37,763 nt of DNA from an uncultured Bacilli bacterium (GTDB lineage Bacteria; Bacillota_I; Bacilli_A; RF39; UBA660). The notes beneath the pieces are model-generated. The model had not been told where the DNA came from, made no database searches, and was given only the letters and a program-made list of their open reading frames with translations. This document shows, piece after piece, positions 5,095-28,844 of the stretch. Numbering within the stretch: the stretch's first letter is position 1; every line of letters starts with the position of its first letter. Where the stretch lies: assembly GCA_947632405.1 (NCBI GenBank), contig CANRPE010000014.1:1-37763 (forward strand), read 5' to 3'. Made by a program: the position numbers and the translations under genes.

Positions 5095-5117
5095 AGCTTG
5101 TGCCCTATTTATTTTTT
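5089..5117. terminator. Compact bidirectional terminator with both stop codons in the stem
   Basis: AAATAG (5089-5094) pairs with CTATTT (5105-5110), the stem continues with GC/GC around a TTGT loop, and a T-run follows at 5112-5118. The TAG of the plus-strand SpoIID-like gene and the TAG of the minus-strand 74-residue gene both lie in the stem. Confidence 0.75.
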
Positions 5118-5329
5118 TCGATCATAAATTGTAAAGCTTGATCTGCATCTTTATTTAAATTAATACTACTATCAATAAATTTAGAATATGAATCTAAACT
5201 ATCACAGAAATTTAAAACTTCAGAAAGATCTCCTCCATATTTTTCAATAATTGTTCTAATATTTTTAGAAGAAGTTGAAATACTATTAGATAATTCAAGT
5301 AATTCCTCATATTTTAAAGAACCTAGCAT
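5105..5329 (-). CDS. Small helical protein at the type VII secretion locus
   Basis: A 74-residue protein predicted to be two helices joined near residue 32 by a YGGD turn. It has no Trp, no WxG motif and no membrane segment. It overlaps the previous 62-residue gene by one base (TAATG), so the two are translationally coupled and last in the essC operon. The size, helix-turn-helix outline and position fit a WXG100-like secreted partner or a small helper of an exported effector. That is inference; sequence similarity alone does not assign it. Confidence 0.6.
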   Translation of the reverse strand: MLGSLKYEELLELSNSISTSSKNIRTIIEKYGGDLSEVLNFCDSLDSYSKFIDSSINLNKDADQALQFMIEKNK

Positions 5330-5517
5330 TATATCTCATTCCTTTCCATTTCTTTTTTTTCTTCTAAGAAATTTGCTGCTCTAATTACGATTTTTCGATA
5401 TTCGTTAATTTCTTCTATATGATTTAAATTATCATTATTAGTCCAACTATTTTTTAATTTTTCCAAAATAGAGAAAATATTATTTACTTCTTTTACATAT
5501 TGTTCATAGTCATTCAT
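5329..5517 (-). CDS. Small WXG-like protein at the type VII secretion locus
   Basis: A 62-residue helical protein containing KLKNSWTNNDNLNHI, with Trp at residue 25 in a place resembling the turn of WXG100 (ESAT-6-like) proteins. It is much shorter than the usual 95-100 residues, so at best the first helix is shortened. The start follows GGAGGTAGCTA. It lies 10 bases after esaB in the operon and is coupled to the next gene. It is a candidate substrate or partner of EssC; the Gly of WxG is replaced by Asn, so the assignment is tentative. Confidence 0.55.
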   Translation of the reverse strand: MNDYEQYVKEVNNIFSILEKLKNSWTNNDNLNHIEEINEYRKIVIRAANFLEEKKEMERNEI

Positions 5518-5527
5518 TAGCTACCTC

Positions 5528-5785
5528 CTAGATTAGAATAATTCGAGTTCCATTTTCTAAATCTGTGTCTATTACTTTTAAGTTTATATCATAAATTTGT
5601 CCAGTTTCTTTATTATAGAAATTTGTATCATCCTCAATACAAAATCCATCATCAGCTAAATCAGAAATACCTTTTTCGATTAACTTTTTTATAGTACCAA
5701 TTCTTTTACTAATAGGTACAAAAACATCATATTCTTTTTCAATAGAAGGAATATAAATTTCTAATAAAATTTTATTATTTTCCAT
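5528..5785 (-). CDS. esaB: EsaB/YukD ubiquitin-like type VII secretion protein
   Basis: An 85-residue ubiquitin-like protein matching YukD/EsaB: beta-strand YDVFVPISKRIGTIKKLI, then YNKETGQIYD and a final NGTRIILI. EsaB is a cytosolic accessory part of type VIIb secretion systems. The usual length is about 80 residues. The start follows AGGTGATATT. It is 8 bases downstream of essC, which supports the identification. Confidence 0.85.
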   Translation of the reverse strand: MENNKILLEIYIPSIEKEYDVFVPISKRIGTIKKLIEKGISDLADDGFCIEDDTNFYNKETGQIYDINLKVIDTDLENGTRIILI

Positions 5786-5793
5786 AATATCAC

Positions 5794-8700
5794 CTATTTT
5801 TCTACTAATTTTACTAAGCTTGCTTTGCCATTTTTTACTATATAACCGAAATTATCTGGAATTTCTTCTCTTAATTCACGTGGAGCTGTACCTAATTTTA
5901 TAACATATTGATCACTAATTCCATTTCCTAACCAAATACCTTGAGAAGAATCAATAGAATTTTTATACCAGTCATCATAAGTAAATGATTTTAATTTTTC
6001 AGCATTTTCTATTATAACAAAATGATCTACATCTATTTCTTTATTATTTAATAAAACATTGGTAATACTTTTTTTATGTTCTTCACTAATTTTTGAGAAG
6101 AAATTAGCTATACCAAAAATAAGATATGTTGTTTTTGAAAAATCATTTAGTATTTCTTCATTATCATTATTATTTTCATAAAGTTCTTTTTCTTTAGCAA
6201 AATTATTAATTATTACCTCTGCAATAGAATCAAATTTTGTATTAATATAATTTCTAGTAATATCTTCACTAGTTAAAGTTTTATTTGCATCAATTACTAC
6301 TACATTTTGATATGGAATTTTACTAAATAATTTTATTAATTGAATAAAGAATGTTTTATAAGATGATACATCATTTGCAGAAATAAGAGAAATTGAGTCT
6401 TCACTAAAGTCAAATGTAGCTATATCTAAATTATCTTTTTTGATACCAATAGGTAATGTAGATAAATCTCCTATTTTTTCTTCTACATTTTCAATTGTAA
6501 CTTCATCAGGTAGAACTGGTATCTTCACTGCATAAGTTTTACATATTTTTCTTAATCTTTGTGATACTACTTTAATGAATTCAGACATACACTCCTCATG
6601 ATATGCATATGCTGTTTGAAATTCATAAATAGAGTCTAATTCAACTAGACCTCGACCAAGGGATTTTGAAGGTTCTTTTTTAGTACGTGCTTGTAATACA
6701 TCAGAATAATCAGATGAATCATTAAATTGAAGAACTAAATTTTGTTTAAAGTTTTGTCTAATTCGATAACGTACTGCATTTGTACTATTAGCCGCTATAA
6801 TAAAGACAATTCCATATTTTTCACCTTCACGACTAAGTTGAATAAAATCTTCTTCATAATCATAAGACTCTGTAAATACATCATAATTATTAATAATAAT
6901 TGTAATTAAAGGAACTTTCTTGTTACTATGTTCATTATAAAATTTAAAAGAACCATTATAATCAGCAAAAATCTTTTTTCTTTCATCCATAATACTATTC
7001 ATCATTTTGAATAAATTTTCAATTTTTTCTATATCATTAGAATTTAGAACAGCACCTATCTGTGGAGCTTTTTCGAACATTTTTAAAGTCTCAGCACCTA
7101 AATCAATAATATAGAAATTAATTTCTTCTGGATTATAACTTGTAATAGCAGAATATAAAATACTAGATAATAATAATTCTTTTCCACTACCAGAAGAACC
7201 AAATATGATTGTATTTCCAACTTCTGACAATGCTAAAGTTAAAATACCCTGTCTTTGATTATCTGGATCATCATACTCACCAATTACTAATTCTATTTCA
7301 TCTTCTTTTTGTTGATAATTATATTTTTTCTTCAAATCTTCAATATAAATAATATTAGGAATACGATCTAACCATAATTGTGGAATTGAAATATTTTCCT
7401 CATTAGCTACTTTTTCAATGTAATTAATAATATTAGGTAATTCTTCTCCTTCTGATTTTACTTGGATTGCATTAGCTTCTGAATCAAATGATTTTATAAC
7501 AGTACCAACATTATCAATAAAATCAACTGCTGTATCTACTTTTTTCTTTCTTTTATCCGTTGGATAATACTGAGCTCCTGCCCATGCAGATTGACCTAAA
7601 GCAAATAATTCATTATAACCAACTTGAAGATAAAATCTTCCAGGATTTTTTAAAGCTGCCGCATCTGGACATTTTATCATATCCATACTATCAGATTGAT
7701 CTTGGACTTTTAAACAAATTTTAAATTTAGAGTTTGACCAAATTTGATCATCAACAACTCCAGATGGTTTTTGAGTTGCTAAAATAAGATGTACTCCTAA
7801 ACTACGACCTATCCGTGCTGTTGAAATTAACTGATCCATAAAATCAGGTTGTTGAGCTTTTAATTCTGCAAATTCATCAGATATAATAAATAAATGAGAA
7901 ATTGGTTCTTTTACTTTGCCCTCACGGAATAATCTTTGATATTTATAAATATCTATTGTACTTTCATTTAAATTATCACGAGCTTCGTTAAATTTTCTTT
8001 GTCTACGACGTAATTCACTTTGAATAGATGATAAAGCACGATTCATTTCAATTGTATCTAAATTAGTAATTGATCCTGCTATATGAGGAAGTTTTGTTCC
8101 ATTTTCTTTATTAAGAAAAACTCCAGCTAAACCTCCACCTTTATAATCAATTAATACAAATGATACTTCATATGGTGTAAAATTAACAGCCATAGAAAGA
8201 ATATAGGAAATAATAAGTTCACTTTTTCCTGAACCAGTCATACCTGCAATTAAACCATGTGGTCCATAAAATTTTTCATGTAAATCTAACTTAAATTGTT
8301 CTCCATTTTTATCAAGACCAATAGGAACTTGTAAGGATTTGGTCGGATCATTTGTTTTCCAACGATTTAAAATATTAAGTTGTTCAATCATACCAACATT
8401 ATACATTTCTAAAAAACTAACAATACTAGGGATATTTTTTTCTTCTTTTACTATATCTATTGGAATATTAGCAAGTTTTTTACAATACTTATAAATATCT
8501 AATGTGCTATCATAATCGGCAATAAATTCTTTTTGTTTATTAGAAACTAGTTCATTTTCAAAAATACCTGATTTTTGATCACCAATACTAATAAATGTTC
8601 TACACTCATTTGGCAAATTAGTAAGTCTTGGACTAATAATTGCTAAACTAAAACCATAATTAATTTCCTGTGCTTCAACATCTTTAATAATTTCTAAGTC

Positions 8701-10395
8701 TCTAACCATCTTATAATCATCAGTAATAATAATATAATAAGGAGCAAAATTTAGATAATTTTTATCTTCTATTCTAATTCCATTCTGAGTAGAATTACGA
8801 GAGCGATGTTGAAATTCTTTTTCTAAATAAAGTGATAATTCTTTCATTTCATCAATATTAGTAGCAAAAAAACGAATTGATTTATCATTATTCCAACAAT
8901 GTGGTAAAATTTTTAAATAATCCCATAATGCACTATTTTTTCTATTTGTAAATAATACAATTTTTAAGTCTTCGTAACTATGAAAAGCTATCATTTGCAA
9001 AATTAGTCCTTCAATAAATTTTTGTTTTTGTTTTCCTTCACCAATTATTGCGCTAACATAATTTTTAACAAATGAAAGTGATATAGGTACATCAACTAAC
9101 ATTCTAGATTCAGATGCTACTTTATAAACTAAATCTCTTAAATTATCTTCTTCTAACATAAATTTTTGTTCTGGAAATTTAATATTACCTACCAACTCTG
9201 TAGATCCAATTCCAAGTCTTAAATCAAGAAAATCTTCTTGTTTAATTTCACGTTCCCATAAATTTCTTTTCTTATTATCAATAATTGTTCTTACAACATC
9301 AAGTGGTAAGTAATTATCAATTAAAATTTGACGTTGAACTTTCATTTGAGCAATAATTTCTTGATGCTTTTTTTCTAAATATTCTCTATATTTATCTTGT
9401 CTTAGTTTTTCGCGTTTTTCTATTTGCTTTTTTTGATATTTTTTAGAAAGCATTGGCCATAATAACATTGATAAAATCATAGCTAATGACATTATGAGAG
9501 TTGGCATTGCACTACTCAATTCTTGAGTTCCATTAATTACTCCTGATAATGAAGTATAACCAAAAGCAACAGAACTCATTGCCATAGTAAGCATTGGTCC
9601 AACAATATAAATAGTTGGCATTTCATCTTGTTTTTCTGGTTGAGGTGGATCTTCTACTATAATATCAACAGATTCTATTTTAGATTTAAATCTTGGTGAG
9701 CGAAAAAAATAATCATTTTCACTATAAAATTCAATTCCTTCTTCATCGATATTATCTTCTTTTGTTTGTCTTTGAATTGGTGAATTCATAATTGAAAAAG
9801 TATTATTATCATATTTAATTTTATCTTCTAAATAATTAACAATAATATGATCTTTCATTATAACAATTTTTAATCCCATGATAAAGACAATATCACCGTA
9901 ATCTAATTTTGTTTTAGTAATTGCAATATTATTAACATAAGTTCCATATTTACTATTTAAATCTTCAATTGTCCATAATCCATTTTGAAAACTTAATTTA
10001 GCGTGCTGTTTAGACACTAGTGAGTTATTATAATTAATATGAGCATGCGCATCATTTCCAATTAGAATATCTCCTTCTCGAAGAACTAATAATTTATTTT
10101 CTTTTTTATCAAATGAAGGTGAACAATACAAAATAACAAACTCATTGTCTGTATTTATCTTTAAAAAATATAAACTATTTTCTGTTAAATAAGCATATTC
10201 GATTTCTTTGTTTCCAGACATTATTTTAGTCTCGAAATCACTTTTAATTTTCCATTTTCCATCTTCTGCTTCTACATTAATTAAATTCCTATTATTGCCA
10301 GAACGATCATCATCTGTGACCCAATAATTACCAGTAACTTTAGTTGGTAAAGAAAAATTATAAATCTTAGTTTTTTTTATCAATCTAATAATCAC
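5794..10395 (-). CDS. essC: EssC/YukB type VII secretion FtsK-SpoIIIE ATPase
   Basis: The membrane motor of the type VIIb secretion system, about 1533 residues as usual for EssC. The N-terminal cytosolic part holds an FHA domain (about 100-175; LIGNDAHAHINY, SKQHAKLSF). Two membrane segments follow at about 262-286 and 297-316, then tandem FtsK/SpoIIIE ATPase domains. The first Walker A is GMTGSGKSE (about residue 717) with a Walker B-like LFIISDEFAEL. The second is GSSGSGKE (about 1065). The third C-terminal domain has no Walker A and looks degenerate, as in other EssC proteins. The GTG at 10404 lies in the ribosome-binding site GGGTGA, so GTG 10395 is preferred. It has its own good promoter. 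Confidence 0.95.
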   Translation of the reverse strand: MIIRLIKKTKIYNFSLPTKVTGNYWVTDDDRSGNNRNLINVEAEDGKWKIKSDFETKIMSGNKEIEYAYLTENSLYFLKINTDNEFVILYCSPSFDKKENKLLVLREGDILIGNDAHAHINYNNSLVSKQHAKLSFQNGLWTIEDLNSKYGTYVNNIAITKTKLDYGDIVFIMGLKIVIMKDHIIVNYLEDKIKYDNNTFSIMNSPIQRQTKEDNIDEEGIEFYSENDYFFRSPRFKSKIESVDIIVEDPPQPEKQDEMPTIYIVGPMLTMAMSSVAFGYTSLSGVINGTQELSSAMPTLIMSLAMILSMLLWPMLSKKYQKKQIEKREKLRQDKYREYLEKKHQEIIAQMKVQRQILIDNYLPLDVVRTIIDNKKRNLWEREIKQEDFLDLRLGIGSTELVGNIKFPEQKFMLEEDNLRDLVYKVASESRMLVDVPISLSFVKNYVSAIIGEGKQKQKFIEGLILQMIAFHSYEDLKIVLFTNRKNSALWDYLKILPHCWNNDKSIRFFATNIDEMKELSLYLEKEFQHRSRNSTQNGIRIEDKNYLNFAPYYIIITDDYKMVRDLEIIKDVEAQEINYGFSLAIISPRLTNLPNECRTFISIGDQKSGIFENELVSNKQKEFIADYDSTLDIYKYCKKLANIPIDIVKEEKNIPSIVSFLEMYNVGMIEQLNILNRWKTNDPTKSLQVPIGLDKNGEQFKLDLHEKFYGPHGLIAGMTGSGKSELIISYILSMAVNFTPYEVSFVLIDYKGGGLAGVFLNKENGTKLPHIAGSITNLDTIEMNRALSSIQSELRRRQRKFNEARDNLNESTIDIYKYQRLFREGKVKEPISHLFIISDEFAELKAQQPDFMDQLISTARIGRSLGVHLILATQKPSGVVDDQIWSNSKFKICLKVQDQSDSMDMIKCPDAAALKNPGRFYLQVGYNELFALGQSAWAGAQYYPTDKRKKKVDTAVDFIDNVGTVIKSFDSEANAIQVKSEGEELPNIINYIEKVANEENISIPQLWLDRIPNIIYIEDLKKKYNYQQKEDEIELVIGEYDDPDNQRQGILTLALSEVGNTIIFGSSGSGKELLLSSILYSAITSYNPEEINFYIIDLGAETLKMFEKAPQIGAVLNSNDIEKIENLFKMMNSIMDERKKIFADYNGSFKFYNEHSNKKVPLITIIINNYDVFTESYDYEEDFIQLSREGEKYGIVFIIAANSTNAVRYRIRQNFKQNLVLQFNDSSDYSDVLQARTKKEPSKSLGRGLVELDSIYEFQTAYAYHEECMSEFIKVVSQRLRKICKTYAVKIPVLPDEVTIENVEEKIGDLSTLPIGIKKDNLDIATFDFSEDSISLISANDVSSYKTFFIQLIKLFSKIPYQNVVVIDANKTLTSEDITRNYINTKFDSIAEVIINNFAKEKELYENNNDNEEILNDFSKTTYLIFGIANFFSKISEEHKKSITNVLLNNKEIDVDHFVIIENAEKLKSFTYDDWYKNSIDSSQGIWLGNGISDQYVIKLGTAPRELREEIPDNFGYIVKNGKASLVKLVEK

Positions 10396-10433
10396 TGATA
10401 TCACCCAATTTCTATTCTTCCTATTCTTATTTT

Positions 10434-27673: not shown

Positions 27674-28015
27674 TCAGACTCTTTTAATTAGGTTTCCATC
27701 AGAATCAAACATATAATCTTTTCTTGTTACTTGATCTTGATGATGCTCTAACTCATGGCACTCTTTACATAATCCCTCTAGGTTGTTTTCATTAAGTGTA
27801 ATGTTATCATCATATACATTAGTGTTATCTAAATATTCTTTATGATGTACGATTCCTGTTCGCCTTTTGTCTTTTGGAATCCACATACTTAATCCATCAA
27901 CATATACAGGTTTATGACATCTATTACATAATAGGTTCTGCTTTATCCATATGTTTTTTCTTGCAGTTTTCCATGCTTTAGAGTTATAGAAATCTTTTCT
28001 TATTCCATGACTCAT
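27674..28015 (-). CDS. Phage HNH endonuclease
   Basis: A 113-residue HNH nuclease. It shows the N-terminal FYNSKAWKTARKNIW, two CxxC zinc pairs (CNRCHKP and CKECHELEH), and the catalytic IVHHKEYLDN with a following Asn in NNLEGLC. Such proteins act with terminase in cutting cos DNA in many phages. Its start overlaps the previous stop by 4 bases (ATGA). It lies next to the putative cos site and terS. Confidence 0.92.
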   Translation of the reverse strand: MSHGIRKDFYNSKAWKTARKNIWIKQNLLCNRCHKPVYVDGLSMWIPKDKRRTGIVHHKEYLDNTNVYDDNITLNENNLEGLCKECHELEHHQDQVTRKDYMFDSDGNLIKRV

Positions 28016-28230
28016 TTTATTTTCTTACTTCTTACTGCCTTTTCAGTTTTACTTTTTAGTTTAGCATTTTCTTTTTTATCTTCTTTAATGACTTCTATTT
28101 GTCTAACTAATCCTAGAGATACTAACTCATCTGCTCTTTCTTTAGATACTGTAATTAGTTCTCCTCTATTGATTTGTTTTTTTAATTGTAAATCGTTGTA
28201 TGTAGCAGTACATTCTACTTTTACTTTCAT
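28012..28230 (-). CDS. Small phage protein of unknown function
   Basis: A 72-residue protein: a compact N-terminal half (KVKVECTATYNDLQ, RGELITVSKERADELVSLGLV) followed by a Lys/Glu-rich tail. Similar small proteins, with a domain ending in an 'ERA.EL...GLV' helix, are common beside phage head genes and often listed as uncharacterised. The start follows GAAAGGAGAATATAGT. It lies between the chaperone frame and HNH. Confidence 0.6.
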   Translation of the reverse strand: MKVKVECTATYNDLQLKKQINRGELITVSKERADELVSLGLVRQIEVIKEDKKENAKLKSKTEKAVRSKKIK

Positions 28231-28247: not shown

Positions 28248-28481
28248 TTATCCAAATACTCTATCTATATCTTGTTGTGTTGCTTTTCTTGTTCCATCTG
28301 ATGATGTTTCTATACTAGATAGTAGTATATTTAATAAACTAACGAATGACATTTCTTTCATATCATCGATAGTTATATTTAATCTTTTAGCAAGAGCTAT
28401 TATTTCATATTCATCTATTGGCTCATCACTTTGTGAACTGTTGGGGATTTCCTTTATTTCCCCCTGATATGGGTGTAACTG
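28248..28481 (-). CDS. Tail assembly chaperone, T part (reached by +1 frameshift)
   Basis: An open frame after an in-frame TAG at 28482 with no start codon or ribosome-binding site of its own. Downstream of the shift it reads NSSQSDEPIDEYEIIALAKR, then LNITIDDMKEMSFVSLLNILL and ends in DIDRVFG. A helical tail like this is typical of the T domain of G/GT chaperone pairs. It overlaps the end of the 120-residue G-like frame (stop at 28426) in the +1 frame, so it is most easily read as a fusion extension of about 65 residues. Confidence 0.65.
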   Translation of the reverse strand, partial: QLHPYQGEIKEIPNSSQSDEPIDEYEIIALAKRLNITIDDMKEMSFVSLLNILLSSIETSSDGTRKATQQDIDRVFG

Positions 28482-28788
28482 CTAATTCAATTGTTTCATC
28501 TACCCACTTTATATCATCAAATAACTTTTCTATTCCTTTTAGAAATTCTTCAAATGACCCTACTTGTTTAGCATCAGATTCTACTATCATTACATATGTT
28601 ATTTGTAATAATATTTCTATAAAATCATCTAATACTGCAAGTATATCATCATTACTTTTTCTTAAATCTTTTATCGTATTAATGTCTTGCATCAATTTTC
28701 TACCAGTCATATCTCTATATTTGAATTGTGTTAATGCACTTGATTGCATAGTATAATCTTTACCACCGATATTAATTATTTTTTTCAT
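28426..28788 (-). CDS. Tail assembly chaperone, G part
   Basis: A 120-residue protein: an N-terminal IGGKDYTMQSSALTQFKYRD, then GRKLMQDINTIKD, a helical IEILLQITYVMIVESDAKQV and WVDETIELAVTPISGG. Size, fold outline and the overlapping downstream frame fit a phage tail assembly chaperone (G, with GT made by frameshift) that coats the tape measure. The assignment rests on pattern and on the overlap architecture. The place is unusual: upstream of HNH-terS-terL, not before the tape-measure gene. The start follows AAAAGGAGAAAGTT. Confidence 0.65.
   Translation of the reverse strand: MKKIINIGGKDYTMQSSALTQFKYRDMTGRKLMQDINTIKDLRKSNDDILAVLDDFIEILLQITYVMIVESDAKQVGSFEEFLKGIEKLFDDIKWVDETIELAVTPISGGNKGNPQQFTK
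28440..28464 (-). promoter_or_regulatory. Candidate +1 frameshift site
   Basis: Between the TAG at 28482 and the G-frame stop at 28426 there are two slippery places for a +1 shift: GGG-G in the G-run at 28464-28460 and CCC-C at 28446-28443. Programmed +1 shifting at a CCC codon is known from Listeria phage PSA structural genes. The -1 frame does not connect the two frames. Confidence 0.55.
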
Positions 28789-28819
28789 AACTTTCTCCTT
28801 TTCTAATAAATTTAGAACA

Positions 28820-28844
28820 AAATAAAAGAGGTTATAATAACCTC
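28820..28844 (-). terminator. Terminator between early and late regions
   Basis: GAGGTTAT-T-ATAACCTC then TTTTATTTTG on the minus strand (stem 28828-28844). It lies 40 bases before the chaperone start, in a 213-base gap (28789-29001) that also holds a duplicated gene start (28922-28993). A late promoter is expected here; TGTGATACT near 28885 is a weak extended -10 candidate. Confidence 0.6.

Follow-up and report, generated by a model that had tools for sequence, protein, structure and literature searches.

Frameshifting in tail chaperone genes is widespread and its direction is usually treated as -1. In the lambda-type G/GT arrangement, the second of two overlapping frames has no start codon, the shift takes place on an X_XXY_YYZ heptamer, and in lambda itself G exceeds GT by a ratio of ~30:1 (PMC5009743). 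The opposite direction is already known in two settings. Slippage by +1 at CCC proline codons occurs in structural genes, namely cps (at ACA_CCC, PMC5009743) and tsh of Listeria phage PSA and gp17.1* of SPP1 (at CCC_UAA, PMC6316719), where the A site holds a stop codon (tsh, gp17.1) or a 3' structure follows (cps); the chaperone of SPP1 itself has a putative -1 site (UUUUUUC). In tail chaperone genes, a +1 shift has been proposed, and is likely, in the haloarchaeal myovirus HSTV-2, and such shifts are annotated in actinophages, with 350 forward sites, mostly in these genes, in the SEA-PHAGES training set of PRFect. In the open literature we found no report of a CCC-based chaperone shift, of a chaperone located ahead of the terminase, or of a switch of direction within a homologous family.

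The locus described here lies in a 37,763-nucleotide stretch of DNA from an uncultured Bacilli bacterium (GenBank assembly GCA_947632405.1, contig CANRPE010000014.1), the whole of which is hereafter called the window. It resembles the lambda-type G/GT pair in its overlapping frames, start-less second frame and, by inference, excess of G, as well as in having homologues that sit between the major tail protein (MTP) and the tape measure protein (TMP). By contrast, its shift would be +1 instead of -1, at CCC and not at a heptamer, and the genes lie upstream of the terminase small subunit (TerS). With PSA cps and tsh and SPP1 gp17.1* it shares a rare CCC followed by U or A, from which the tRNA can re-pair to the commoner and better-paired proline codons CCU or CCA, and with PSA cps the identical ACA_CCC; the proline-codon slippage of PSA, to which a preliminary description of this DNA had pointed, is hence the right analogy. 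Whereas the PSA and SPP1 sites belong to capsid or tail-tube genes, this one belongs to a putative chaperone and has a sense codon after it, with a 3' hairpin in only some relatives. The +1 direction in a tail chaperone gene is shared with HSTV-2 and the actinophages. We read the locus, with a probability of about 0.85, as a lambda-G/GT-type chaperone pair in a displaced gene, expressed through a +1 slip of a few percent by tRNA-Pro(UGG) at the rare CCC at 28473-28471.

Two overlapping frames conserved in phase

The two frames and the sequences immediately ahead of them are the following:

28426-28788, (-) strand: G, putative tail assembly chaperone ORF, 120 aa, ATG start, phrog_709
28248-28469, (-) strand: T, predicted +1-frame extension used after the shift, 73 aa (YQGEIKEIP...ATQQDIDRVFG), phrog_3033
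28795-28800, (-) strand: Shine-Dalgarno-like sequence of G (AAGGAG)
28828-28844, (-) strand: terminator-like stem with a T-rich tail, just upstream of G (1 found vs 0.3 expected)

The frame containing T is open from 28481 to 28248 (77 codons), without ATG, GTG, or TTG ahead of its conserved domain. These coordinates, together with those of the 120-residue G-like frame ending at 28426, confirm the two-frame layout of the preliminary description. Codon phase allows G to be joined to T only by +1 or -2. In searches against PHROGs, G matched phrog_709 (E 8.6e-11) and the T frame phrog_3033 (E 3.6e-4), neither family having a named function; no significant Pfam family was found for either. The terminator-like stem stands directly ahead of the first gene of the late operon and could be a late-gene antitermination site.

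The search for relatives covered viral contigs, genome contigs, and genomes from the order to which the window belongs; once identical copies were removed, it gave 49 distinct loci in which G and T are both present. The genome-contig loci come from MAGs titled Bacilli, Bacillales, Firmicutes, Clostridium, or Ruminococcus. Among 395 genomes of the class, matches were confined to the window's own family, and tblastn of G against cultured phages returned one distant match and nothing else. T is in the +1 phase relative to G in 49/49 loci, in agreement with the +1 join proposed earlier and not with a -1 shift on a heptamer as the route to T. An uninterrupted frame in relatives, or loss of the second frame, would have spoken against that proposal; no locus among the 49 has G and T fused, no start codon is conserved across them in the T frame, and T is kept in all of them and is better conserved than G (mean column identity of 72% vs 59%).

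In the structure predicted for G by AlphaFold2 (mean pLDDT 85.9), the chain is disordered past residue 109, roughly at the start of the 0-frame tail behind the CCC codon. The top PDB match of the model was Lactococcus phage p2 ORF12 (3d8l; Z 5.4, below 8 and weak alone; rmsd 4.2, 86 residues aligned), which has been described as a tape measure chaperone. Matches of the model in BFVD are named tail assembly chaperones (E about 1e-3, best 1.5e-3, again weak alone), and Foldseek against the PDB gave nothing significant (E 0.25). These fold matches, weak alone, fit the position that the homologues occupy in their genomes.

Gene order and homologues in the canonical slot

Relatives whose flanking sequence is long enough share the gene order of the window, which is G/T - (small ORF) - HNH - TerS - TerL - portal - ... 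- MTP - TMP. In the window, these neighbours are:

28012-28230, (-) strand: small ORF after T, phrog_2616, unknown function
27674-28015, (-) strand: HNH endonuclease, next conserved neighbour downstream
27563-27237, (-) strand: terminase small subunit (TerS), downstream of the chaperone
27240-25555, (-) strand: terminase large subunit (TerL)
20702-20133, (-) strand: MTP, with no chaperone between it and TMP
20045-17736, (-) strand: TMP, directly after MTP

The usual, though not obligatory, site of a tail chaperone is just upstream of TMP, whereas this pair lies upstream of HNH-TerS. Judged from gene order, the gene appears to have left the MTP-TMP interval and now opens the packaging/head/tail operon, a point absent from the preliminary description. 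MTP and TMP are separated by ~70-130 nt in most displaced relatives. A second chaperone between them was considered for the window and rejected, as the gap measures about 90 nt and the genome has one G only. In one relative (L066), about 1.1 kb separates the MTP match from the TMP match, vs ~100 nt in other relatives with a displaced chaperone. Three others (L005:15737-16513, L139, and L019) have a major capsid protein only ~20-35% identical to that of the window and neighbouring head and packaging genes that are much closer, which represents mosaic capsid exchange.

More distant phrog_709 homologues occupy the canonical position, including those of Gardnerella phage vB_Gva_AB1 (MW387018) and of L006, L124, L129, and others. 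They have the same G and T domains but differ in direction and placement: T is in the -1 frame in all 12 that were readable, most of which carry A-runs close to where G ends, and wherever both MTP and TMP are present G/T sits between them. The profiles of the displaced and canonical groups are homologous (hhalign E of 2.4e-20 for G and 3.8e-10 for T), which, together with retention of the T frame in 49 distinct relatives, supports the chaperone-pair identity proposed earlier. A single branch with 100/100 support splits the two groups in a maximum-likelihood tree of G. As the root of this tree is not fixed, it is the prevalence of -1 that suggests it to be the ancestral direction.

A rare proline codon at the frame junction

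The shift site is very probably the following codon, overlooked by the preliminary description, with the frames joined by +1 slippage on CCC-W:

28471-28473, (-) strand: putative CCC slip codon, in register in 48/49 distinct relatives

One base forward, the re-pairing codon is CCA (28472-28470, (-) strand). The CCC tally leaves out the row of L133, mis-registered at a contig end, although L133 itself reads CCCATA. Since the relatives are phylogenetically linked, the 48/49 do not amount to 48 independent events. As a control, 31 other conserved proline columns in seven neighbouring genes contained CCC at 29 of 793 codons (3.7%), with a maximum share of 36% in any one column. The sole exception at the junction, L117, has CCT TTT CGT in place of CCC. 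In this most divergent displaced relative (L117:1613-2126), UUU_CGU resembles the influenza PA-X +1 site and may provide this junction with a different +1 site.

The base after CCC is A in 28 relatives and T in 20, never C or G. In rows aligned at the G/T junction the next codon is ATA (22), TTA (14), ATT (6), or TTT (6), so that the A site holds a sense codon (AUA, UUA, AUU, or UUU). It is at CCC that conservation of the 0 frame drops and that of the +1 frame begins (YQG-YK; 42 unique ungapped rows), with an invariant G at +3 and strongly conserved Q at +2 and K at +6. Beyond it, the 0-frame tail of G consists of 14 disordered residues that are not conserved. Stop codons in the T frame two codons before CCC in some relatives, and in the G frame three codons after it in L010, narrow the overlap common to all to about five codons around CCC.

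Host tRNA-Pro and codon usage

Pattern searches of 98 genomes of the host family detected the signature of tRNA-Pro(UGG) in 75 and that of tRNA-Pro(GGG) in 0; when the GGG pattern was relaxed, 2 of the 58 genomes searched gave matches, both judged unlike tRNA-Pro. In the window's own assembly, the pattern search detected neither signature, which leaves family members and pattern searches as the basis of the tRNA argument. An Rfam tRNA search had no tRNA-Pro among the 20 genes listed. Within the window, CCC is a rare codon: the phage genes use it for 8 of their 145 prolines and the host genes for 0 of their 75.

Reporters in E. coli show that CCC-A shifts +1 at 1.5% when both tRNAs are present and at 4.2% when the GGG tRNA is missing (PMC8324841), and the propensity of tRNA-Pro(UGG) to shift in vitro decreases in the order CCC-A > CCC-G > CCC-U > CCC-C (PMC4519876). 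The next bases found in the relatives fit the published propensity, the choice being also restricted by the encoded Tyr or Phe. The unstimulated CCC-A rate is of the same order as the lambda G:GT ratio. A few percent of GT may be made here.

Alternative explanations

The alternative that survives best accepts the slip at CCC but makes its rate depend mainly on RNA structure on the 3' side, as has been described for PSA cps and its 3' pseudoknot (PMC5009743), and not on the host tRNA set. A candidate structure exists:

28443-28463, (-) strand: hairpin GGGGA (28463-28459) / UCCCC (28447-28443), 7 nt 3' of CCC, possible accessory stimulator

Called where it beats mononucleotide shuffles at p <= 0.05, a stem 3' of CCC is found in 18/44 distinct relatives. 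Its distance from CCC is 5-8 nt, mostly 7 nt, and its sixth pair shows compensatory variation (A-U, G-C, G-U, U-A). A comparable stem is missing in the other 26, however, though the +1 phase is universal and CCC-W nearly so; in addition, the arms encode conserved residues, and in E. coli without the GGG tRNA CCC-A reaches its ~4% unstimulated (PMC8324841). We consider this explanation unlikely. The hairpin was rejected as an essential stimulator on account of the relatives that have no such stem and, being lineage-restricted with arms that are also coding, is treated as a possible accessory one. Its 3' arm includes a second CCC-A, in the T frame (in IPN, 28445-28443, (-) strand), which could cause a small second +1 shift.

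Slippage at a codon beside CCC (-2 or +1 to +3), which would mean that CCC is conserved for some other reason, is improbable. The overlap common to the relatives does still span about five codons, and UUU_CGU in L117 comes close to the influenza PA-X site UCC_UUU_CGU (PMC3498833), but the neighbouring codons vary (nine types at -2, four at +1), and CCC alone is both rare and nearly invariant.

The preliminary description had itself proposed other sites, CCC-C (28446-28443) and a five-G run (28464-28460), both positioned as claimed and both inside the frame overlap of the window. Slippage by +1 at either, or by -2 at the G run as in Mu-like phages, for which tRNA-Gly re-pairing on GGGGGA is possible on paper, is nonetheless very improbable. 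Neither site is conserved: many relatives do without them although their T is in +1, and L007, L009, L010, and L062 lack both; in L010, moreover, the G-frame stop comes just after the upstream CCC. The comparison of homologues suggested in that description thus singles out the CCC at 28473-28471 as the conserved element, and CCC-C is the context least prone to shifting for tRNA-Pro(UGG) (PMC4519876). Both runs lie in the hairpin arms, which explains why they had been picked.

Separate synthesis of T by internal initiation, without any frameshift, seems more remote still: there are ATGs within the T domain, at codons 36 and 39, but starting there would remove half of it, no conserved start lies upstream of the domain, and +1-frame conservation begins at the CCC codon itself. 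Finally, although the assembly that contains the window is fragmented (54 contigs), gene decay or an indel from sequencing or assembly can practically be dismissed, since T is strongly constrained and in the same +1 phase in all 49 distinct sequences, which stem from independent metagenomes and MAGs and include no fused version.

Proposed mechanism and its evolution

In the preferred reading, slippage of tRNA-Pro(UGG) at CCC, the majority of ribosomes would stop at the end of G, yielding the 120 aa protein. In a few percent, the tRNA would re-pair with CCA one base downstream, and translation would run on in the T frame to give GT, of about 179 aa. As the host lineage seems to have tRNA-Pro(UGG) only, CCC would always be read by weak U34-C pairing, and this would set the shift rate; the downstream hairpin may add to it in some relatives. 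From frames, CCC-W conservation, gene position, tRNA survey, and homology, all read in the sequence, we infer the occurrence and rate of slippage, the tRNA mechanism, and the chaperone function.

Both directions occur within one homologous family, and gene position separates them cleanly. We would give even odds to a scenario in which one prophage lineage moved the chaperone out of the MTP-TMP slot and switched from -1 on an A-run to +1 on CCC-W, the tRNA-Pro(GGG) missing from the host acting as a stimulator-free device that fixes G:GT and ties tail length control to the host's tRNA-Pro pool and its m1G37/cmo5U34 state. The family offers a natural case for asking how frameshift direction evolves and whether a host tRNA set can replace slippery heptamers and stimulators. 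For annotation, CCC-WT before HNH-TerS can serve as a rule to find a protein probably missed by automatic annotation in these gut prophages.

The host flank of the window (5105-10404, (-) strand) resembles, by eye from the sequence, a type VII secretion locus, with a 1536-aa FHA/FtsK-like protein of the EssC type followed by small ORFs, one of them possibly YukD-like.
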